A stretch of 64,000 nt of DNA from Streptomyces kanamyceticus. Its GTDB lineage: Bacteria; Actinomycetota; Actinomycetes; Streptomycetales; Streptomycetaceae. The position numbers and the translations under genes were made by a program. The DNA is taken from positions 5,580,001 to 5,644,000 of the forward strand of contig NZ_CP023699.1 in NCBI RefSeq assembly GCF_008704495.1, in the 5' to 3' direction. The notes below the pieces were generated by a model. The model ran no database searches and was not told the origin of the DNA. It worked only from the letters and a program-made list of their open reading frames with translations. Shown piece after piece: positions 6,831 to 63,925 of the stretch (position 1 is its first letter; the number at the start of each line of letters is the position of its first letter).

Positions 6831-8255
6831 TCAGATCACCCGGGTGCGGCGCGGGCCGCCCTGCCGGGCCGTGGCGAGCAGCCCCCGTGCCGTCGAGAGC
6901 CAGCCGATCGCGACGATGCCCGCGGCCACCGCCAGACCCAGCGACCCGTTCAGCGGCATGGCGATGCCGACGGCGCCGCCGAACACCCACGCCACCTGGA
7001 GCATCGTCTCGGAGCGGGCGAAGGCGGACGTGCGGACCTGCTCGGGGACGTCCCGCTGGATCAGCGCGTCCAGGGACAGCTTCGACAGGGCCTGCGCGAA
7101 CCCCGCGCAGGCGCCCAGACAGGCCACGCCCACCGCACTGAAGAACAGTGCCGACGTGATCGCCACGCACAGGACCACGGCCACCACGGTCACGATGATG
7201 ACCTCCGGCGCCCGCGCCTTCAGCCAGGCGCCGACCGCGGTGCCCAGCGCGTTGCCCGCGCCCGCCGAGACACCGACGATGCCGAGCGAGACCGCCGCGC
7301 TCTGCCCGGCCAGCGGGTGCTCGCGCAGCAGGAACGCCAGGAAGAAGATGAGGAAACCGGAGAGACAGCGCAGCGCCGCGTTGGCGGCCAGGGCGTGGGT
7401 GACGCCGGGGCCGACCGTGCGCAGCCCGAGCCGCCGCTTGCGGGAGGTGTCGGCGGCGGCCTCCACGCGCGCGTGCAGATGCAGATGCTCCTCGTCCGCG
7501 GAGAGCAGCGCCTTGGCCTCGCCCTTCGCCGAGTCGACCTTGCGGGGCAGCGAGAACGACAGGAACATCCCCGACACGAAGATCACGAAGGCGCCGAAGA
7601 GCGGCCAGCGCGGACCGATGGCCTGCAGCCCGGCCCCGGCGGGCGCGGCCACGGCGGTGGCCAGGAGACCGCCCAGGGTGACGCGGGAGTTGGCCTTGAC
7701 GAGGGAGAAACGGGGTGGCAGAAGCCGTGGCACGACGGCGCTTCTGACCACTCCGTACGCCTTGGAGGCGACGAGCACGCCGAGCGCGGCGGGGTAGAGC
7801 TCGACGCTGCCGGTGGCGACCGCGCCCGAAAGGACGAGCGCCAGCAGGGCACGGGCCAGCATGGCGCCCGCCATCGCGGCGCGGCGCCCGTGCGGAAGCC
7901 GGTCGAGCAGCGGGCCGATGACCGGGGCGAGGAGCGTGAACGGCGCCATCGTGATGGCGAGGTAGAGCGCGACGCGGCCGCGGGCCTCGTCGGTCGGCAC
8001 CGAGAAGAAGACGGTGGAGGCGAGCGCGACGGTGATCATCACGTCGCCCGCGCCGTTCACCGCGTGCAACTCGATCAGCTTCCCGAGGCCCGACTCGCCC
8101 GCGCCGTGGGCGTGCGTGGCCTTGCGGATGCCGCGGGCGGGGCCGGTGACGGGGAAGTGCAGGGCGCGGCCCAGGGCGCGCGCGGTCCGTCGCGCCGGTC
8201 CCGGCGAGACGGTTCCTGTTGCTGTCCCTACGGACGTCGACCTTGTGGGGGCCAC
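6831..8255 (-). CDS. MFS transporter (12-helix, drug-exporter-like)
   Basis: Membrane transporter of the major facilitator superfamily, about 474 residues, with two six-helix halves and a charged central loop (about 240-270: PRKVDSAKGEAKALLSADEE). The MFS signature region is seen as GPLLDRLPHGRRAAM after the second helix. The GTG at 8255 was chosen (VAPTRSTSVG); the open frame continues upstream only through the low-complexity repeat array and is not believable there. A 70-residue hydrophilic N-terminus precedes the first helix. The substrate is unknown. The gene points away from the tandem array at 8.4-8.7 kb. Confidence 0.88.
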   Translation of the reverse strand: MAPTRSTSVGTATGTVSPGPARRTARALGRALHFPVTGPARGIRKATHAHGAGESGLGKLIELHAVNGAGDVMITVALASTVFFSVPTDEARGRVALYLAITMAPFTLLAPVIGPLLDRLPHGRRAAMAGAMLARALLALVLSGAVATGSVELYPAALGVLVASKAYGVVRSAVVPRLLPPRFSLVKANSRVTLGGLLATAVAAPAGAGLQAIGPRWPLFGAFVIFVSGMFLSFSLPRKVDSAKGEAKALLSADEEHLHLHARVEAAADTSRKRRLGLRTVGPGVTHALAANAALRCLSGFLIFFLAFLLREHPLAGQSAAVSLGIVGVSAGAGNALGTAVGAWLKARAPEVIIVTVVAVVLCVAITSALFFSAVGVACLGACAGFAQALSKLSLDALIQRDVPEQVRTSAFARSETMLQVAWVFGGAVGIAMPLNGSLGLAVAAGIVAIGWLSTARGLLATARQGGPRRTRVI

Positions 8256-8347
8256 TCCGTCATAGTGCCCCCTTGGGGGGTGTCCTAGTGCGGATACGTG
8301 GCCGGGGGCCTTGGGGGGGCTCCTCCGCGTGTCCCCCGGGGCCGGTG

Positions 8348-8726
8348 CGCTCCGCCGCTCCGCGACGGCCTCTCCCACCGACTCACCCGTCACGGCGCGT
8401 GTTCTCCCCCGCTCCGCGAGGGCCTTTCCCACCCGCCCGCCCGGCGCTCCGCACGGTCCGGCACGTGTTCTCCCCCGCTCCGCGAGGGTCTTTCCCGCCC
8501 GCCCGCCCGAATCTCCGCACGGTCCGGCGCGTGTTCTCCCTCGCTCCGCGAGGGTCTTTCCCGCCCGCCCGGCGCTCCGCACGGTCCGGCACCTGTTCTC
8601 CCCCGCTCCGCGAGGGCCTTTCCCGCCCGCCCGCCCGGCGCTCCGCACGGTCCGGCACCTGTTCTCCCCCGCTCCGCGAGGGCCATTCCCGCCCGCCCGC
8701 CCGTTGCTCCGCGCCGAGTCGTGCGT
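8348..8726 (+). repeat. Tandem array 1: five 62-66 bp hairpin units plus a degenerate sixth
   Basis: Units begin (at GTTCTCCC) at 8401, 8467, 8533, 8595 and 8661, spaced 66, 66, 62 and 66 bases; the short unit lacks one 4-base CCCG step. Each contains CGCTCCGCGAGGG, half of a near-perfect hairpin, followed by a CTTTCCCRCCCGCC tract and a CTCCGCACGGTCCGGCRC segment. A diverged copy precedes at about 8348. The same unit, in reverse orientation, forms array 2 at 10865-11500. There are no unique spacers, so this is not CRISPR. Confidence 0.9.
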
Positions 8727-8790
8727 CTGTGGTCCCGCTGTCTGCGGGGCGCGCCGCGCCGGGGGCCACCTGTCCGGGTGTTGTGGGGGA

Positions 8791-8871
8791 AATGTTTGGG
8801 CGGGTGGGTGGGGAGTACGGCGCGGAGCGGCGGCGGAGGGAGAGGGCGGTGCGGAGGGGGGATGTGCCGAG
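8791..8871 (+). repeat. 81-bp inverted block A, with G-quadruplex motif
   Basis: An 81-base segment that matches the reverse complement of 10546-10626 with five mismatches (about 94% by hand alignment). It starts with AATGTTTGGG and ends GATGTGCCGAG, and contains GGGCGGGTGGGTGGGG at 8798-8813, a four-tract G-quadruplex motif with one-base loops. Together with the two arrays it makes an inverted-repeat frame around the DUF3027 gene. Confidence 0.85.
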
Positions 8872-9202
8872 GGGGCACAGGGGGAACGGGGCCGAGGAGT
8901 GGGGCGGGGGCGTAGGCCGGGGGCCGGGCGCGGAGGCCCGTGGGGGAGGGGCGGAACGGGGGCTCGGGAGCCGGGGGCGTACGTCGGTGTAGGCCCAGGG
9001 GCCAGGAGAAGGTAGCGTGCGTAGCGCGCCTGCGGCGGTTGTTCTTGGCCGCGCGCCTCTCGGTCATCCCGCAGAATGGGTGACGTAGGTGCGCCCGAGA
9101 ACGTCGGGCGCGGACGTTGACGCGGCCCCCAGGTCCGCTCCGTCCGTACCCCCGCGTAAGGGTGGCGCACTCGTGAGACGGCGTAGGAGAGAAGCGATAC
9201 CT

Positions 9203-10141
9203 GTGAGCGCAGCGACAACGCGAAGCCGTACCCAGCGCACCCCGCGTACCCCGGACCGCCTGTGCGCCGAAGCGGTCGGCCTGGCGCGGGCCGCGGCCGA
9301 GGAGGCCGCCGCACCCGGTGTGGTCGGTGAGCACGTCGAGGTCGTCGTGGAGGGCGACCGGGTCGTCACACACCTCTTCGAATGCAAGGAATTCGGCTAC
9401 CGCGGCTGGCGCTGGGCGGTGACGGTCGCCCGTGCCTCGCGGGCCAAGGTCGTCACGCTCGACGAGACGGTGCTGCTGCCCGGTTCCGACGCGCTCCTCG
9501 CCCCCGAATGGGTGCCGTGGAGCGAGCGGCTGCGCCCTGGCGACATGGGCCCGGGCGACCTCCTGCCGACGGACGCGGAGGATCTGCGCCTCGAGCCCGG
9601 TTTCACCGGCGAGGAGGAGCCGCCGCCGAACTCCGCCGTGTCGGAGGAGATGGCCGAGCTCGTCGAGGCGGAGGACGCCGAGGTCACGGCGGGTCCGCCC
9701 GCCGAACTGCCGTTGGCGCCCGCGCGCGGTTCCATCGCGGCGGTCGCCGACGAACTGGGCATGCGGCGGGCCCGGGTCCTCTCCCGGTACGGGCTGCACA
9801 TCGCGGCCGACCGCTGGGAAGAGACGTACGGCGCGAAGACCCCGATGGCGCAGGCCGCGCCCGCGGGCTGTGTGAGCTGTGGATTCCTGGTGGCGATCGG
9901 CGGCTCGCTCGGTCAGGCGTTCGGTGTGTGCGCCAATGAGTTCGGGCCTGCGGACGGGCGGGTCGTCTCCCTCTCGTACGGCTGTGGAGGCCACTCGGAG
10001 GCGGCGGTCATGCCGAAGCCGCCGCGGCCGGCGCCGCCGGTGCTCGACGAGACGCGGGTGGACGTGTTGCCGTTGCGGCCCGCGGCGGATTCGGGGTCGG
10101 TGAGTGTGGAGGGGCCCAGTGAGGATCTGGGCCACTCCTAG
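9203..10141 (+). CDS. DUF3027 family protein with cysteine cluster
   Basis: A 312-residue soluble protein of the actinobacterial DUF3027 family, function unknown. The N-terminal half (about 20-120) contains VVTHLFECKEFGYRGWRWAV and APEWVPWSERLRPGD, the conserved family core. After an acidic linker, the C-terminal part has an HTH-like helix pair (IAAVADELGMRRARVLSRYG) and a putative metal site: CVSCGF, then CANEF, then YGCGGHSE, four cysteines and a histidine. The GTG start was chosen for the AGGAGA 12 bases upstream and because it begins VSAATTRSRT. It is bracketed on both sides by the inverted repeat system described separately. Confidence 0.87.
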   Translation: MSAATTRSRTQRTPRTPDRLCAEAVGLARAAAEEAAAPGVVGEHVEVVVEGDRVVTHLFECKEFGYRGWRWAVTVARASRAKVVTLDETVLLPGSDALLAPEWVPWSERLRPGDMGPGDLLPTDAEDLRLEPGFTGEEEPPPNSAVSEEMAELVEAEDAEVTAGPPAELPLAPARGSIAAVADELGMRRARVLSRYGLHIAADRWEETYGAKTPMAQAAPAGCVSCGFLVAIGGSLGQAFGVCANEFGPADGRVVSLSYGCGGHSEAAVMPKPPRPAPPVLDETRVDVLPLRPAADSGSVSVEGPSEDLGHS

Positions 10142-10545
10142 TTCCGGCGGCGGGTGACGGGGCCCCGGGTGTTCCTGTGCCATGGGCCCGGTCGGGTGCC
10201 TGAGCCGAACGGTGGCTCCTGCCCCCGCCGCGCTGCGCCCCCTGGCCGGTCCGGTCGGCAGCGCGTCCCTACGCCCAACACATCGGGCGTACGCCCCCGG
10301 ACCTGTCCCTCGGCCCCGTAGCCGAGGTCCCTGGCCCGCCCCTCAGCACGACGGCCCACGCTCGGCACGGTGGCCTGCGTCCTGGCCCGCCCCCAGCGCC
10401 GCGGCGGTGGCCTGCGCCTCCTGGCGGGTTCCGTCGGCTAGGTGACTTACGCCCCGGACCGCTCCTCAGCGCCGTGCTCCCTGTGACCGGCGCCGTGGCT
10501 CCTGTGCCCCCGCCCCGTTCCTCGAGCCCGTGGCTCCTGCGGCCT

Positions 10546-10626
10546 CTCGGCACATCTCCCCTCCGCACCGCCCCCTCCCTCCGTCGCCGCTCCGCGGCGT
10601 GCTCCCCACCCACCCGCCCAAACATT
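10546..10626 (-). repeat. 81-bp inverted block B, mate of block A
   Basis: The reverse complement of this segment aligns to 8791-8871 with five mismatches in 81 positions and no gaps. The G-quadruplex motif is preserved on the minus strand (the + strand reads CCCCACCCACCCGCCC at 10604-10619). It sits about 400 bases beyond the end of the DUF3027 gene, as block A sits about 330 before its start. Confidence 0.85.
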
Positions 10627-10864
10627 CCCGCGCGGGTAACTGTCACCGCGAAAGCGGCGAGGAACACCCACCCGCCGCTGCGCGGGCGGGAAGGCCCGCC
10701 GCAGAGCGGCGAAGCGGGGGTGAGCGCGGTGTTGTGGAAGGGCAGCGGTCCGGGTTGGCAGGGGCGCCGTGCGGTGCGCAGATCCGGGTGGGCAGGTGGC
10801 GAAGTGGGGTCACGTGCGCGGCGTTGACGGAGGGTTGGCCCGGGTCGGCCGGGCATGGGCTGGG

Positions 10865-11500
10865 CGGTGCGGAGCAACGGGTGGGCGAGTGGGAAGGGCC
10901 CTCGCGGAGCGGGGGGAGAGAACTTGTGCTGGGCGGTGCGGAGATTCGGGTGGGCGGGTGGGGATGGCCCTCGCGGAGCGAGGGAGAACACGTGCCGGAC
11001 CGTGCGGAGCGCCGGGCGGGCGGGAAAGACCCTCGCGGAGCGAGGGAGATACAGGTGCCGGACCGTGCGGAGCGCCGGGCGGGCGGGAAAGGCCCCCGCG
11101 GAGCGAGGGAGATACAGGTGCCGGACCGTGCGGAGCGCCGGGCGGGTGGGAAAGGCCCTCGCGGAGCGGGGGAGATACAGGTGCCGGACCGTGCGGAGCG
11201 CCGGGCGGGCGGGAAAGGCCCCCGCGGAGCGAGGGAGATACAGGTGCCGGACCGTGCGGAGCGCCGGGCGGGTGGGAAAGGCCCTCGCGGAGCGGGGGAG
11301 ATACAGGTGCCGGACCGTGCGGAGTGCCGGGTGGGCGGGTGGGAAGGGCCCTCGCGGAGCGGGGGAGAACAGGCGCCGGACGGTGCGGAGCAACGGGTGG
11401 GTGGGTGGGGACGGCCCCCGCGGAGCGGGGGAGAGCAGGTGCTGGGCGGGGCGGAGTGACGGGTGGGTGGGTGGGAGAGGCCGTCGCGGAGCGGCGGGGA
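10865..11500 (-). repeat. Tandem array 2: ten 62-69 bp hairpin units, inverted relative to array 1
   Basis: The hairpin core CKCGCGGAGCG recurs at 10901, 10970, 11032, 11095, 11158, 11221, 11284, 11351, 11417 and 11482. The central units are exactly 63 bases, and 11044-11169 is repeated exactly as 11170-11295, a 126-bp higher-order duplication. Cores read CCCTCGC-GGA-GCGAGGG, CCCCCGC-GGA-GCGGGGG or mixed forms, so the stem is kept while its sequence varies. The outer units on the right add GGGTGGGTGGGTGGGG (11395-11410) and GGGTGGGTGGGTGGG (11461-11475). Confidence 0.9.
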
Positions 11501-11876
11501 GCGTCCCGTCGGGTGGCAGCACCGGCGGGTTGGGCGCAGGGCAGGGCCCGGTGACGAGCGGCAGGCCCCCGCGGAGCGGAGTGGCGGGGCAGGCGGAGTG
11601 GCGGGGTGGAGCGGAGCAGAGTGGCGGGGCGGGGCAGGGGAGGCCCCCGCGGAGCGGGGGAGAGGGGGCGTGGGGCTCAGGAGCCAGTCTCCGCAGGCAC
11701 CGCCCCGTTCCGGCTCCAGCCCTCCCGCCAGGACGCGGTACCGTTCGCCCGCAGGCAAGACCGGATCAGACCCCCGCCTGAAGCAACATCGGCTCAGGCC
11801 CCCGCCCCGAGCAACACCAACACAACACCAGAACCCCGACACGAGCCCCCACCCCCCCCAAAGAAGAGAGACGACC

Positions 11877-14800
11877 GTGAGCAAGACCGTGCGGCCGGCG
11901 GCCGAGGGTATTGATCCCTTTGGTACCGCCCGCCTCCGCCGCGGAGTCCTCGACGCCTGGGCCGCCGCCCCGCCCCGCTTCCGCGAGGACGCCAACGCCG
12001 AGGAGGACCTCGCGCTCGGCGGCTACCGGGACCGGCTCGTCGTGGAGTTGGCGCAGAACGCCTCGGACGCGGCCGCCCGCGCGGGCGTTCCCGGGCGGCT
12101 CGCGCTGACCCTGCGCGACGGCGTCCTCGCCGCCGCGAACAGCGGCGCCCCGCTGGACGCGACCGGCGTGGAGTCCCTCTCCACGCTGCGCGCCTCCGCG
12201 AAGCGGGAGACCCCCGAGGGGGCCAGGGGCACGAGCGTGGGCCGTTTCGGCGTCGGCTTCGCCGCCGTGCTCGCGGTCTCCGACGAGCCCGCCGTCCTGG
12301 GCCGCACCGGCGGCGTCCGCTGGTCGCTCGCCGAGGCCCGTGAACTCGCCGCGGAGACCGCCAGGTTCAGCCCGGGCCTGGGCGACGAGATCCGCCGCAG
12401 GGACGGGCATGTCCCCCTGCTCCGGTTGCCCATGGCGGCGGAGGGCAGCGCGCCCGACGGGTACGACACGGTCGTCGTCCTGCCGTTGCGGGACGCCGCC
12501 GCCGAGGATCTGGTGGCTCGGCTCCTCGCGGGAGTCGACGACGCCCTGCTGCTAGCCCTGCCGGGGCTCGCCGAGGTCACCATCGAGACCCCGGACGGCA
12601 CCGACCGCACCGACCGCACCGACCGCACCGACCGCACCGGTCGCACCGTCCGCACCCTGCGCCGCCGCGCCGAGGCCCCGTACACCGTGGTCGAGGACAG
12701 CCGCGACGGTACGACGCGCTGGCGCACCGTCAGCAGTCAAGGCCCTCTCGACGCCGCGCTGTTGAAGGACCGGCCGGTCGAGGAGCGGCTGCGCCCGCAC
12801 TGGTCGGTCACCTGGGCCGTGCCCGTGGACCGCGACGGCGCTCCGGAGCGGCCCCGCAGCACGCCCGTGGTGCACGCGCCGACGCCGAGTGACGAGCCGC
12901 TGGGCGTACCGGCGTTGCTGATCGCGTCGTTCCCGCTGGACACCGCCCGGCGGCATGCCGCGCCGGGTCCGCTGACCGACTTCCTGGTGGAGCGCGCCGC
13001 GGAGGCGTACGTCGAACTCCTCGCCGACTGGCGGCCCGTCACCGAGGAGATCATCTCCTTGGTGCCGGGGCCGCTCGGCAGGAGCGAGCTGGACGGCGCG
13101 CTGCGCGGGGGCATCCTGGAGCGGCTGCCGCGCACCGCCTTCCTGCCGCCCGCGCTGCCCCGCGCCGAGATCCCCGACGTCCCCAACCTCCCCAACCTCC
13201 CCAACGTCGACGAGCTCGGCGAGGAGGACCTGCCCCAGGCCCTCCGCCCCCGCGACGCGGAAGTCGTCGAGGGCGCGGGCGCCGACACCGTGCGCGTGCT
13301 CGCCGAGGTGCTGCCCAGCCTGCTGCCCGCGGGCCTCGAACGCCGTGCCGAGCTGCGCACGCTCGGGGTGGCGCGGCTTCCGCTGACCGAGGCGGTCGAC
13401 CGGCTCGCCGGTCTGGAGCGGGACGCGGCCTGGTGGCGGCGGCTGTACGACACCTTGGCGGGCGTCGACCCCGACCGGCTCTCGGGGTTGCCCGTGCCGC
13501 TCGCCGACGGGCGTACGACGATCGGGCCCCGGCAGGTCCTGCTGCCCGCCGCGGGCGACGAGCGCGATCCCGCCTCGCTCGCCAGGCTGGGCCTGAAGGT
13601 CGCCCATCCGGAGGCCGTCCACCCCCTCCTGGAGAAGCTCGGCGCGCTCCCCGCGACGCCCCGCGCGATCCTGACGACCCCGCAGGTGCGCGCCGCCGTG
13701 GCCGCCTCCCTCGACGACGACACCTGGGACGAGGAGGCCCTGGACGCCGACGAGTTGGCGGACGTCGTGCTCGCGCTGGTGCGGGACGCCCGTCTCGCGC
13801 CGGGCGACGAGCCGTGGCTCGCCGCCCTCGCGCTGCCCGACGAGGACGGTGAACTCGCCCCCGCCGGTGAGCTGGTGCTCCCCGGCAGCGCGTTCGCCGA
13901 GGTGATGCGCGAGGACGAACTGGCCCTGGCCGACCAGGATCTCGCCGACCGCTGGGGCGAGGAGCCGCTGGCTGCCTGCGGGGTGCTCGCCACGTTCGCG
14001 TTGGTCCGCACCACCGATGTCGTACTGGATCCGGATGAACTGGAGCCGCGCGAAGGCGACTTCGCCGAGCCCGACGACGCGGGTCTCCTTGACGCCGTGG
14101 ACGTGTGGTGCGAGGACGTGCTCGACCGGCTGCCCGATACGCCGGTGCCGCCGGTCGCCACCGAGATCGTCGCCGTACGGGATCTGGATCTGGTCGACGA
14201 CGACTGCTGGCCGCGGGCGCTCGCGATGCTCTCGCGCCCGCCGCTGCGGGACGCGCTGACGCAGCCGTTGCGGGTGCTGCTGCCCGACGGCACGACGGAG
14301 ACCGTCCGTTCGTACACGGCGTGGTGGCTGCGCGGCCATCACGTCCTGGACGGGCGCCGTCCCGCCGGTCTGCGCGCCGCGGGCGGCGATCCGCTCCTGG
14401 TGGGTCTGTACGACGCGGCGGACGCCTCCGGCTTTGGCGACGAGGAGGTGCTGCGGGCCCTGGGCGTGCGGACCTCGGTCGGGGCGCTCCTCGCGGAGCC
14501 GGGCGGCGCGGCCGAGCTGCTCGACCGGCTCGCGGATCCGGAGAGGACCGTTTCGCCCGCCCAACTGCACGCGCTGTACGGGGCCCTTGCCGATCTCGAC
14601 CCGGAGCAGGTGACGCTCCCCGACGAGCTGCGCGCGGTGGTGGATGGCGAGGTCGTGGTGGTCGACGCGGCGGACGCGGTGGTCGCCGACGCGCCGGACC
14701 TGCTGCCGCTGGCCGAGGGCGTGCCGCTGCTTCCGGTGCGTTCGCGCAAGGCGGGGGACCTCGCGGAGCTGTTCCAGGTGCGGCGGCTGAGCGAGACGGC

Positions 14801-15095
14801 CGCGGTGGAGCCCGCGGGCCACGGCGTGGAGCACGCGGTGCCCGAGCCGGTGCGGATCCTGCTGGGGGCGGCGACCCCGGAGACGTACATCGAGCACGAG
14901 GAACTCGTCGTGGGCGGTGTGGATCTCGACTGGCGCCGCACTCCGGACGGCACCGTGCACGCGGCGACGCTGGAGGGTGTCGCGGCGGGGCTCGCCTGGG
15001 CGGCGGGGCAGTGGCCGCGCAGGTTCGAGGTGGCCGCGCTGCTCGAAGATCCTTCGCGGACCGCGGAGTTGGCGCGGGACCGCTGGTTCGACTGA
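11877..15095 (+). CDS. Giant sacsin-type protein with GHKL/HSP90-like ATPase domain
   Basis: A 1072-residue cytoplasmic protein. Residues about 45-200 carry a GHKL (HSP90/histidine kinase) ATP-binding fold: N-box VVELAQNASDAAARAG (55-70), G1 box AAANSGAPLD (86-94), and G2 lid SVGRFGVGFAAVLAVSD (120-136). This is the arrangement in the N-terminal repeat of sacsin. The remaining 800 residues are acidic, rich in leucine and proline, and have no domain I recognise. GTG at 11877 (VSKTVRPAAEG) follows a purine-rich ribosome site; the frame further upstream is repeat-derived. A chaperone-like or conformational ATPase role is inferred. Confidence 0.85.
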   Translation: MSKTVRPAAEGIDPFGTARLRRGVLDAWAAAPPRFREDANAEEDLALGGYRDRLVVELAQNASDAAARAGVPGRLALTLRDGVLAAANSGAPLDATGVESLSTLRASAKRETPEGARGTSVGRFGVGFAAVLAVSDEPAVLGRTGGVRWSLAEARELAAETARFSPGLGDEIRRRDGHVPLLRLPMAAEGSAPDGYDTVVVLPLRDAAAEDLVARLLAGVDDALLLALPGLAEVTIETPDGTDRTDRTDRTDRTGRTVRTLRRRAEAPYTVVEDSRDGTTRWRTVSSQGPLDAALLKDRPVEERLRPHWSVTWAVPVDRDGAPERPRSTPVVHAPTPSDEPLGVPALLIASFPLDTARRHAAPGPLTDFLVERAAEAYVELLADWRPVTEEIISLVPGPLGRSELDGALRGGILERLPRTAFLPPALPRAEIPDVPNLPNLPNVDELGEEDLPQALRPRDAEVVEGAGADTVRVLAEVLPSLLPAGLERRAELRTLGVARLPLTEAVDRLAGLERDAAWWRRLYDTLAGVDPDRLSGLPVPLADGRTTIGPRQVLLPAAGDERDPASLARLGLKVAHPEAVHPLLEKLGALPATPRAILTTPQVRAAVAASLDDDTWDEEALDADELADVVLALVRDARLAPGDEPWLAALALPDEDGELAPAGELVLPGSAFAEVMREDELALADQDLADRWGEEPLAACGVLATFALVRTTDVVLDPDELEPREGDFAEPDDAGLLDAVDVWCEDVLDRLPDTPVPPVATEIVAVRDLDLVDDDCWPRALAMLSRPPLRDALTQPLRVLLPDGTTETVRSYTAWWLRGHHVLDGRRPAGLRAAGGDPLLVGLYDAADASGFGDEEVLRALGVRTSVGALLAEPGGAAELLDRLADPERTVSPAQLHALYGALADLDPEQVTLPDELRAVVDGEVVVVDAADAVVADAPDLLPLAEGVPLLPVRSRKAGDLAELFQVRRLSETAAVEPAGHGVEHAVPEPVRILLGAATPETYIEHEELVVGGVDLDWRRTPDGTVHAATLEGVAAGLAWAAGQWPRRFEVAALLEDPSRTAELARDRWFD
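12599..12646 (+). repeat. In-frame 9-bp minisatellite (Asp-Arg-Thr repeat)
   Basis: Four to five copies of GACCGCACC inside the sacsin-type gene encode DRTDRTDRTDRTGRT at about residues 241-256. The 9-base period keeps the frame, so copy number can change without breaking the protein. A smaller in-frame repeat (CCCAACCTC, giving NLPNLPNV) lies near 13186-13206. Confidence 0.85.
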
Positions 15096-21001: not shown

Positions 21002-21439
21002 ATGCCGGACCTCTCCCATGGTGACGATGCCGTCGCCGTGAACGCCCTGCGCTCCGCCGTGATGCGCCTGTCCCGTCGACTCAAGCACCAGCGTGTCGAC
21101 GAGTCGCTGAGCCCCACCGAGATGTCGGTGCTCGGCACCCTTGCCCGCTGCGGCAGCGCCACTCCGGGCGAGCTCGCCCGCAAGGAGCACGTGCAGCCGC
21201 CTTCGATGACCCGCATCGTCGCCCTGCTCGAAGCCAAGGGCCTGGTCCGGCTCGAGCCGCACCCCGAGGACCGCCGCCAGAAGGTGGTGACCCAGACGGA
21301 GACCGCCGAGGCCATGCTCGAGGAGAGCCGCCGCAAGCGGAACGCCTGGCTCGCCGGTCTCGCCGAGCACCTCGACGAGGACGAGTGGGAGCGGCTGCGC
21401 GCCGCCGCCCCGGTCCTGGAAAAGCTCGCGCACTTGTAA
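21002..21439 (+). CDS. MarR-family transcriptional regulator
   Basis: A 145-residue winged-helix repressor. Helices 20-40 (VNALRSAVMRLSRRLKHQR) form the dimer interface. The DNA-binding part is LSPTEMSVLGTLARCGSATP then GELARKEHVQPPSMTRIVAL, with the wing RLEPHPEDRRQKVVTQTETAE. The gene is followed 69 bases later by an MFS exporter, the classic arrangement in which a MarR protein senses a toxic compound and derepresses its pump. A 19-bp tandem duplication covers its last codons and stop. Confidence 0.93.
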   Translation: MPDLSHGDDAVAVNALRSAVMRLSRRLKHQRVDESLSPTEMSVLGTLARCGSATPGELARKEHVQPPSMTRIVALLEAKGLVRLEPHPEDRRQKVVTQTETAEAMLEESRRKRNAWLAGLAEHLDEDEWERLRAAAPVLEKLAHL

Positions 21440-21462
21440 GCAACTCGCGCACTTGTAAGCAA
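21425..21462 (+). repeat. Perfect 19-bp tandem duplication at the marR stop codon
   Basis: CTCGCGCACTTGTAAGCAA occurs at 21425-21443 and again directly at 21444-21462. The first copy contains the last three codons and TAA stop of marR, so the second adds only a non-coding echo. It looks like a recent slippage duplication and does not change the protein. Confidence 0.9.
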
Positions 21463-21508
21463 CTGGTCCTCGCGACGACCTTCGTACGCCAAAGGAGGCG
21501 AACCGACT

Positions 21509-48805: not shown

Positions 48806-49759
48806 GTGTCGAGTACCGATCAGGAGACGGCGACCGGCGGGCGTGCCGCGCTAGGGCCCGTCGGGCTCGTACTCGCCGGGGGCATCTCCGTGCAGTTCGG
48901 CGGGGCGATCGCCGTCAGCGTCATGCCGAAGGCGGGGGCGCTCGGCATCGTGACCCTGCGCCTCGCGTTCGCCGCGCTCGTGCTGCTCATCGTCTGCCGA
49001 CCCCGGCTGCGCGGGCACTCGCGCGCGGACTGGGGCACGGTCGTCGCCTTCGGCGTCGCCATGGCGGGCATGAACGGCCTCTTCTACCAGTCCGTGGCCC
49101 GCATCCCCATGGGCCCCGCGGTCACGCTCGAGGTCCTCGGCCCCCTCGCCCTCTCCGTCCTCGCCTCCCGCCGGGCGGTCAACTTCATCTGGGCGGGCCT
49201 TGCCCTCTGCGGCGTCTTCCTGCTCGGCGGCGGTGGCGGGTTCAGCGGCCTCGACCCGGTCGGTGTGGCGTACGCGCTCGGCGCGGGGGCGATGTGGGCG
49301 ACGTACATCGTCTTCAGCGCGCGTACGGGACGGCGCTTTCCGCAGGCCGACGGGCTCGCGCTCGCCATGGTCGTGGCGGCGGTCCTCTTCCTGCCGCTCG
49401 GCCTCGTGGAATCCGGCTCGAAGCTGGTCCGCCCCGAGGTGCTGGCGCTCGGCGCGGCGGTCGCCGTGATGTCGTCCGTGCTGCCCTACACCCTCGAACT
49501 CCTCGCGCTGCGGCGGCTGCCCGCGTCCACGTTCGCCATCATGATGAGCCTCGAACCGGCGATCGCGGCGGTCGCGGGCTTCCTCATCCTCGGCCAGGCG
49601 CTGGCTCTCAGCGAGGCGTTGGCGATCTCTTTGGTGATCGCGGCGAGCATGGGGGCGGTGCGGTCGCAGGTGGGGCGCCGGAGGGTTGCGCCTGCTGCTG
49701 CGGCGACGGTGCTACCGGAAGCGACGTCGGCCCTCCCTGAGCGGGAGCGCTCCCTGTAG
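48806..49759 (+). CDS. EamA-family (drug/metabolite transporter) exporter
   Basis: A 317-residue membrane transporter with ten helices, formed from two EamA repeats. Examples are GLVLAGGISVQFGGAIAVSV and the central GMNGLFYQSVARIPMGPAVTLE in repeat one, and VAYALGAGAMWATYIVFSAR with STFAIMMSLEPAIAAVAGFL-ILGQALAL in repeat two. GTG at 48806 follows CAGGAG. It resembles RhtA-type amino-acid exporters. The basic/Ser-rich C-terminus runs into repeat-like DNA. The divergent LysR gene is its likely controller. Confidence 0.92.
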   Translation: MSSTDQETATGGRAALGPVGLVLAGGISVQFGGAIAVSVMPKAGALGIVTLRLAFAALVLLIVCRPRLRGHSRADWGTVVAFGVAMAGMNGLFYQSVARIPMGPAVTLEVLGPLALSVLASRRAVNFIWAGLALCGVFLLGGGGGFSGLDPVGVAYALGAGAMWATYIVFSARTGRRFPQADGLALAMVVAAVLFLPLGLVESGSKLVRPEVLALGAAVAVMSSVLPYTLELLALRRLPASTFAIMMSLEPAIAAVAGFLILGQALALSEALAISLVIAASMGAVRSQVGRRRVAPAAAATVLPEATSALPERERSL

Positions 49760-50252
49760 GAACCTTTCCCACCCGCCCACCCGTATCTCCGCGACGGGCT
49801 CTTCCTGTAGGAGCCGCCCCGTGCGTCGTGGGGCGGGGCCGCGGCGGTATGTCCGTCCTCGCCGTCCCAGAGCATTGCCACACCACGGGCACCTCGGAAC
49901 GAGGCCCCCAGTGCTCCGGGCGGACATACCGCCACGTCCCCTCAGGCCGGACGGCGGCTGCGGGTCGCGCTGCTGTGGGCAATCGTTCCGCACGGCGGAA
50001 CGGGTGGGCACAGCCCCCGGCGCCGAGGGACGGTTACGGGGGCACAAGCCACAGTGCAGGTGGGCGCAGCCCCACCGGCCCGCAGCCGCCCGCGCTCCTG
50101 AGGGGACGTGGGGGTATGTGCGAACGGAGCACAGTGGAGACCGAGGCAAGGAAGCAAGGCCAGTAGCCCCCGCCCCGGGATGGCGAGTACGCACATACTC
50201 CCGCGGCCCCGCCCCCAAGACGAACCCAAGGCGAACCCGCACCAAAACTCAT
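49760..50252. repeat. About 380-bp imperfect inverted repeat with internal hairpins, gene-free
   Basis: This 566-base gap before the TIGR03084 gene holds no gene. Two related units face each other. Left unit: GGCGGTATGTCCG near 49842 and its mate CGGACATACCGCC near 49919. Right unit: GGGGGTATGTGCG near 50109 and mate CGCACATACTCCCGC near 50191. The segment after the left unit (about 49922-49962) matches the inverse of that before the right unit (about 50080-50120), 41 bases with clear identity at both ends (CCACGTCCCCTCAGG; GCGGCTGCGGG). Inside, CGTTCCGC-ACG-GCGGAACG at 49983-50001 and GGTGGG-CGCAGC-CCCACC are hairpins. Confidence 0.7.
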
Positions 50253-63796: not shown

Positions 63797-63799
63797 GAT

Positions 63800-63925
63800 T
63801 TCCAGCCGGGCCGGAAAATTCGGCTGGACCGGGCAATTTCCCCGGGCCGGGCAATTTCAGCCGGGCCGGGGAAAAATCAGCCCGTCCGGCGTTTGAGGAC
63901 GAGCCAGGCCGCAGGCCGCGACCGG
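63800..63925. repeat. Intergenic repeats after pdxH
   Basis: CCGGGCAATTTC occurs at 63829-63840 and 63847-63858, an 18-base period, inside GCCGGGCCGG-rich DNA. CAGCCCGTCCGGCGTTTGAGG at about 63879-63899 is a diverged copy of the dispersed element seen at 4551-4566 and 36744-36762 (CAATCGCCGGASGGGCTG, inverted). It lies between convergent genes and probably terminates both. Confidence 0.65.

Follow-up and report, generated by a model that had tools for sequence, protein, structure and literature searches.

Why should one gene in the Streptomyces kanamyceticus chromosome be framed by two mirror-image arrays of hairpin repeats? The gene encodes a DUF3027 protein and lies in a 64-kb stretch (5580001-5644000 of a 10,133,897-bp contig), which is called the window here and supplies the coordinates below except where Mb or another locus is given. 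It sits between a divergent upstream gene and a large co-directional open reading frame (ORF), and the repeats occupy both intergenic regions. Of a repeat family that is scattered through intergenic DNA, the DUF3027 locus shows the largest local expansion seen. The explanation that we favor, at about even confidence, is that this is a new REPIN-like family which was locally amplified and homogenized at DUF3027 and which may act at transcript ends or as a boundary.

When the two intergenic flanks of DUF3027 are aligned in inverse orientation, the best score is 369 bits, compared with a mean of 32.9 and a maximum of 52.5 for 100 dinucleotide-preserving shuffles. The symmetric structure that an earlier note had described around the gene is thus real. 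Its long inverted arms match at 83% over 421 aligned positions. The blocks nearest the gene, A and B, have 5 mismatches in their 81-bp core, exactly as claimed, and their inverse match reaches 129 nt at 86% (8788-8916 and 10501-10629). Compared with the whole genome, the 129-nt block A has a near full-length match to block B alone (124/129 nt, 87%); the nine other matches cover 36-57 nt each, and one of them is within array 2. A short GC-rich inverse match near 8970 and 10290 was given no weight. The five units of array 1 and the ten inverse units of array 2 are present as described, and to these can be added a sixth, degenerate unit outside array 1 and weaker units both inward and outward of array 2. 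The parts of the locus are listed below; for repeat units, the strand is the one on which the tract is C-rich.

8350-8400, plus strand: outermost unit of array 1, degenerate, in C orientation; its best right-hand partner is the outermost good unit, 11444-11499
8401-8726, plus strand: array 1, five tandem units in C orientation, each with hairpin CCCYCGCTCCGCGAGGG, a C-rich tract and a CTCCGC tail
8788-8916, minus strand: block A, one unit in the orientation opposite to array 1, which it faces, plus about 80 nt in common with block B
9203-10141, plus strand: DUF3027 gene (PF11228)
10501-10629, plus strand: block B, the inverse of block A (81-bp core, 5 mismatches)
10670-10809, minus strand: two weak, degenerate units inward of array 2 (10670-10714 and 10769-10809)
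10862-11499, minus strand: array 2, ten good units, the inverse of array 1; C orientation on the minus strand, G-rich on the plus strand
11609-11662, minus strand: weak outlying unit
11877-15095, plus strand: large co-directional ORF downstream of DUF3027
49749-49799, plus strand: a single dispersed family member, which overlaps a predicted ORF (48890-49759) at its 3' end

The divergent neighbor (about 6831-8255, minus strand) is presumably an MFS transporter gene.

The units follow one plan, a 7-bp hairpin with a 3-base loop followed by a C3N C3N C3N C3 tract and a CTCCGC tail, and the tract is of the G-quadruplex type on the opposite strand. The exact array hairpin, CCCYCGCGGAGCGRGGG, has 15 copies in 10.13 Mb, all 15 of them in the DUF3027 flanks, with four more elsewhere at one mismatch. 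The G3N tract occurs 74 times in the genome, 64 of these away from the DUF3027 locus, and most of 30 inspected tract sites share the plan: a hairpin such as CCGCCGCTYCGCGGCGG, the C3N C3N C3N C3 tract and CTCCGC. A covariance model (R1) was trained on 19 dispersed copies of the same genome that had been picked by their tract, which is therefore present in the alignment by construction; it gives 87 genome matches at E<=0.01, 20 of them at the DUF3027 locus. Measured by the criterion of dispersal that the earlier note had set itself, the outcome is partly against it: the family recurs in 44 other sampled intergenic regions, though the exact array variant is not dispersed. Tandem clusters occur elsewhere in S. 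kanamyceticus, with periods of about 106 bp near 2.950 Mb (L204) and about 51 bp at 4.381 Mb (L199). At 6.598-6.599 Mb (L255) three G3C tracts lie 229 bp apart and are unrecognized by the family model at E<=0.01.

Curated Rfam models give no match at E<=1 over 7500-12500, one representative unit used as a blastn query has no match at E<=1e-3 in plasmids or phages, and no description of the family was found among titles and abstract openings in an open-licence library. Within the genus, S. kanamyceticus included, it is matched in 9/61 genomes at E<=1e-4 and in 35 of a larger sample of 295 at E<=1e-5; the larger scan was limited to 19 scored candidates per genome, which makes its copy numbers lower bounds. 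In seven relatives that were found by way of their DUF3027 loci, the genome has, at E<=1e-4, 131 matches (WAC 01529), 66 (S. alboflavus), 34 (S. flavofungini), 25 (strain G44), 21 (S. lasiicapitis), 16 (MZ04) and 2 (S. brasiliensis).

The orientation of dispersed copies bears on the plan of the large structure. Genes were placed with a home-made scorer of codon usage, for which 22 window ORFs served as the training set, and by this simple finder 66 of 68 S. kanamyceticus units outside the DUF3027 locus are intergenic (45 fetched loci). Six genomes were compared for placement; they have sites in common, and their loci are high-scoring matches and not random ones. With the DUF3027 flanks left out and at the thresholds used, every intergenic region of mixed orientation is inward facing, with C units first and G units after (6/6 in S. 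kanamyceticus, 16/16 in WAC 01529 and 10/10 in four further genomes, 32/32 in total). Many sites have only one unit at the threshold used. The left flank of DUF3027 reads as six C-orientation units (8350-8726) followed by block A reversed, and the right flank as block B in C orientation followed by ten good and a few weak units reversed. Blocks A and B are units of the array family in opposite orientation, which the earlier note had missed, and each flank is a complete inward-facing element. Since both flanks, taken separately, obey the C-then-G rule, the symmetric structure of 3 kb can be read as a pair of complete elements with amplified outer arms. The basic element would be a pair of inward-facing arms, one element on each side of DUF3027, and the outer arm of each may have multiplied in tandem by slippage or unequal exchange.

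How alike the two flanks are, and in what order, suggests how they were kept. Good units are spaced 62 or 66 bp in array 1, hairpins 62-69 bp in array 2, and array 2 contains two near-identical two-unit blocks of 126 bp. Matched from left to right, the best partners run from 8356-11493 (outermost) through 8410-11361 and 8542-11042 to 8670-10911 (innermost). One unit, 8604 (best with 11361), departs from this mirror order, 8476 ties at 0.88 with 11042 and 11361, and matching from right to left is less tidy, both 10911 and 11427 being best with left unit 8410. Unit identity is 0.798 between left and right, compared with 0.795 and 0.802 within the arrays; to the dispersed copies of the same genome it is 0.66, and to the WAC 01529 arrays 0.58-0.59.

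The layout in WAC 01529 is the same: three C units and one G unit, DUF3027, then one C unit and three G units. The likeness pattern is weaker there (0.756 between left and right, 0.67 to its own dispersed copies), and its two block counterparts are nearest each other (0.89). Over the short part aligned by the model, block A of S. kanamyceticus is closer to the WAC 01529 blocks (0.76 and 0.74) than to B (0.70), and for block B the dispersed copies come closest (0.73), although at lengths of 124-129 nt each of the two blocks finds a match only in the other. Judged from their sequences, blocks A and B are a second mirrored pair. The largely mirrored unit order and the WAC 01529 layout fit an inverted copy that was later kept similar, and inverted gene conversion or an earlier inverted duplication could have kept the flanks alike in mirror order.

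Long inverted arms with the gene and its upstream region between them are also what an invertible DNA switch would have, in which recombination between the arrays flips DUF3027, and inversion was among the functions that the earlier note had proposed, beside looping and protein binding, both of which are conceivable. No inverted locus was found among 114 compared. This is a weak test because long arms are missing from most of the 114; in addition, two genomes or more were counted twice (G024 and G033). WAC 01529 has the arms and yet shows the standard orientation. We consider a switch very improbable. The same comparison gives a constant gene order, with an MFS-like gene upstream and divergent in 114/114 other loci and the downstream gene co-directional in all 86 in which it was found.

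A different account needs no function. Units would be a neutral satellite, multiplied by slippage in permissive intergenic space and homogenized by recombination, which does nothing at the DUF3027 locus. The numbers of units, which differ between S. kanamyceticus and WAC 01529, agree with this; the WAC 01529 layout, kept though the units diverged, does not. The distribution of the family around DUF3027 bears on it further. The 80 named DUF3027 loci (0.93 Mb) contain 16 matches at E<=1e-4, which come from five loci and fall without exception in the two intergenic regions beside DUF3027. Strain G44 (L040), with its 25 genome matches, has none at its DUF3027 locus even at E<=1. These sparse occurrences are as expected of a satellite. 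A genus scan that was not seeded on DUF3027 gave 29 loci, apparently one per genome, from 34 other family-positive genomes; five of the 29 contain DUF3027. WAC 01529 and G44 are two of the 29 that were also reached by name, and neither is among those five. DUF3027 is the most recurrent neighbor family among the loci compared (6 loci, compared with 3 for the next), and in five other DUF3027 genomes a unit lies about 185-295 nt upstream in the orientation of block A. One position and one orientation in the most recurrent home speak against a neutral satellite, which we regard as possible but rather unlikely.

Contig ends give two further sightings of the repeat just downstream of DUF3027, a tandem stretch of family units in L048 (about 7270-7306) and a unit-like C tract in L029 (about 7070-7091), as expected if repeats break short-read assemblies.

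Dispersed copies are often inherited in place. Nineteen of 40 WAC 01529 sites share at least two neighboring genes with S. kanamyceticus sites (median 90% amino-acid identity; a later run gave 20 pairs), and so movement is slow. Examples of such orthologous intergenic sites are L179/L322, L185/L305 and L197/L315; WAC 01529 also has tandem clusters at L315 and L304, with periods of about 106 and 62 bp. This slow movement counts against miniature mobile elements of the REPIN type that depend on a RAYT transposase, which inward-facing hairpin doublets in intergenic space and tandem clusters would otherwise suggest. Y1_Tnp (PF01797) is unmatched in the S. kanamyceticus genome, and the control search was positive in 5/14 genomes. 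The tags GTAG and CGTC occur in 13 and 16 of 90 S. kanamyceticus units, which is shuffle level (shuffled flanks 12% and 22%), and in 5 and 20 of 103 WAC 01529 units. Of the explanations considered, this one is the least credible.

Copies that have kept their places differ in spelling. At the 19 orthologous sites, the best unit has as its middle tract base G in S. kanamyceticus (19/19) and A (18) or T (1) in WAC 01529, and a recount on first intact tracts gives G at 18 sites and A at 17 with T at 1, respectively. Exceptions to these genome dialects exist over all units (44 G and 4 A in S. kanamyceticus; 72 A, 2 T and 10 G in WAC 01529). The model was trained on the S. kanamyceticus dialect, a bias that works against the result. 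At all five comparable sites (six shared), G278, a near relative of G174, has the WAC 01529 base, and it has the same dialect there as G174. Relative to S. kanamyceticus, G278 differs at 4/4 sites, G311 at 2/2 and G123 at 2/2, and G175 agrees at 2/2; G123 and G175 are internally mixed.

Taken together, the columns have no orthology signal at these sites (0.750 compared with 0.747; 464 of 2000 permutations were as high). The site flanks have little either (5/19 above the 95th percentile on each side), and the missing column signal alone proves nothing. Orthologous units compared as wholes were tried as well and are hardly more alike than others (0.774 and 0.761). Methylation or deamination seems an unlikely cause of the dialects, since G is retained at other spacers of the tract in the genomes concerned. 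Change at each site by itself would leave scattered differences between the orthologous copies of two species. The best units at 19 sites, differing at one tract position, point to concerted change of a dispersed bacterial family. Roughly half of the copies compared have stayed in place between the two species and yet changed spelling together, and concerted change at kept places needs either homogenization between copies or a trans-acting reader.

The second of these has its own explanation to offer: the units would be binding sites of a putative trans-acting factor whose specificity changes between species, with the sites switching dialect together and the DUF3027 flank a cluster site, bound perhaps by the regulator of DUF3027 or by a chromosome-organizing protein. 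The dialect difference at 19/19 orthologous sites, with the other columns together lacking orthology signal, the agreement of G174 and G278 and the upstream unit at about 185-295 nt in five genomes would all suit such a factor. Against it, the match of DUF3027 to a helix-turn-helix (HTH) domain is sub-threshold (E=2), two of five other genomes (G123 and G175) are mixed, and single units break dialect. DUF3027 is found in 58/61 relatives, compared with 9/61 genus genomes (a different sample) for the repeat family; it is far wider than the family and so cannot serve the repeats only. We think this explanation unlikely. Its fuller form is more doubtful still: a regulatory or chromosome-organizing site family read by the putative protein, with inherited positions, a tract spelling that switches with reader specificity, the DUF3027 locus as founding cluster site, and DUF3027 or its regulator as part of the system.

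The likeliest use of the favored REPIN-like family would be as a transcript-end or boundary element. Among units that are nearest to a gene end and no more than 80 nt from its stop codon, C-sense exceeds G-sense by 22:6 in S. kanamyceticus, 17:1 in WAC 01529 and 42:16 in four more genomes; summed over the six genomes, whose sites are partly common, this is 81 C-sense and 23 G-sense units, an enrichment and no rule. At all distances the C-sense bias at gene ends in WAC 01529 is 33:10 and significant. Both amplified arms point toward DUF3027 in the C sense, and arms so aimed from both sides would block transcription entering from either side. Two stretches containing both arms fold as DNA better than nearly all shuffles (z -3.8 and -2.3), and the hairpins would fit the structured, U-tract-less transcript ends of S. 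clavuligerus. A scan of 8100-12000 for sigma-70 promoters and U-tract terminators gave no promoter and two terminator-like sites, none in the arrays.

Several results weigh against this reading. The C-sense bias at all distances in S. kanamyceticus is 30:18 (p 0.11) and not significant, and 7 of 44 dispersed regions there are divergent. Array 1 itself is in a divergent region; no gene ends in the left flank, and terminator logic therefore gives no direct explanation of it. Covariation support in the unit model is modest, and single units folded as DNA show no clear gain over shuffles (5/5, z -1.0 to +0.6). A strand preference sought from G.T pairs was contradictory (22 for the G strand and 8 for the C strand in S. 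kanamyceticus, 9 and 37 in WAC 01529), so that neither strand is clearly the structured one. Finally, 75 of the 80 named DUF3027 loci have no family match at E<=1e-4.

The gene and its surroundings have other features. The stretch ahead of DUF3027 (9000-9203) is matched by blastn in 115/115 loci, window included (an earlier pattern search gave 29/115), with strongly conserved blocks from about 9070 onward, and it is perhaps a promoter or RNA region; a small ORF at 9017 was rejected as protein-coding for want of codon periodicity. DUF3027 has no relative in the PDB by sequence at E<=1, and its predicted structure (mean predicted local distance difference test score, pLDDT, 40.6) was too poor and was not used. 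Inverted pairs above 90 bits also flank DUF3027 in five of the 80 loci (L103, L096, L059, L070 and L078), with weak inverted matches in many. Those of L096, L070 and L059 are a different, palindromic repeat, of the GCGCAGTTCCCCGCG or GCGCAGTTCCCCGCGCCCC type. A general palindrome hot spot at DUF3027 was considered and rejected. Upstream, score 14 is reached in 4% of 80 regions and in 0/77 control divergent regions. Downstream, palindromes scoring at least 18 occur in 13% of 52 co-directional DUF3027 regions of the 80 named loci and 1% of 122 controls, and this side may therefore favor strong palindromes whatever their family.

The large downstream ORF contains, at 12594-12656, a 9-bp repeat, GACCGCACC, in seven copies that are read as TDR repeats. 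A perfect 19-bp double repeat (21425-21464) and an 18-bp tandem array (63798-63882) are apart from the DUF3027 structure.

Whether a repeat family evolves by homogenization of its copies or by following a DNA-binding reader becomes a question that is testable in one genus. The natural place for testing both modes is the DUF3027 locus, where about 20 units follow a largely mirrored order, and the locus is a candidate transcription boundary for GC-rich bacteria.

Three known systems are closest. REP and REPIN elements are short intergenic palindromes with inverted doublets and tandem clusters, in tens to hundreds of copies (Bertels and Rainey 2011, PMC3116915), and their GTAG/CGTC repeats are treated in PMC3733652. 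The family at the DUF3027 locus is like them in its intergenic palindromes, inverted doublets and tandem clusters; it is unlike them in that no RAYT-type gene (PF01797, S. kanamyceticus genome) or GTAG/CGTC tag was found, and in its conserved C3N/G3N tract and its genome-specific dialects at shared positions. Streptomyces also has hairpin transcript ends without a U tract (HS-U-lack), which have been likened to I-shaped terminators; in S. clavuligerus the U-tract-less structured ends are the larger class, with 353 of 535 highly structured ends (PMC8269248). The family hairpin resembles these in being GC-rich, lacking a U tract and being enriched just behind stop codons, and it differs in being repeated with a tract and tail and in occurring in divergent regions too. 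The third system, the DNA uptake sequence (DUS), is shorter and far more numerous than the Streptomyces family units. In the Neisseriaceae this motif is dispersed, has dialects that differ by species and forms inverted pairs between genes (PMC3630211). No uptake role is claimed for the Streptomyces family, for which the DUS is the closest parallel in combining dialects with inverted pairs.

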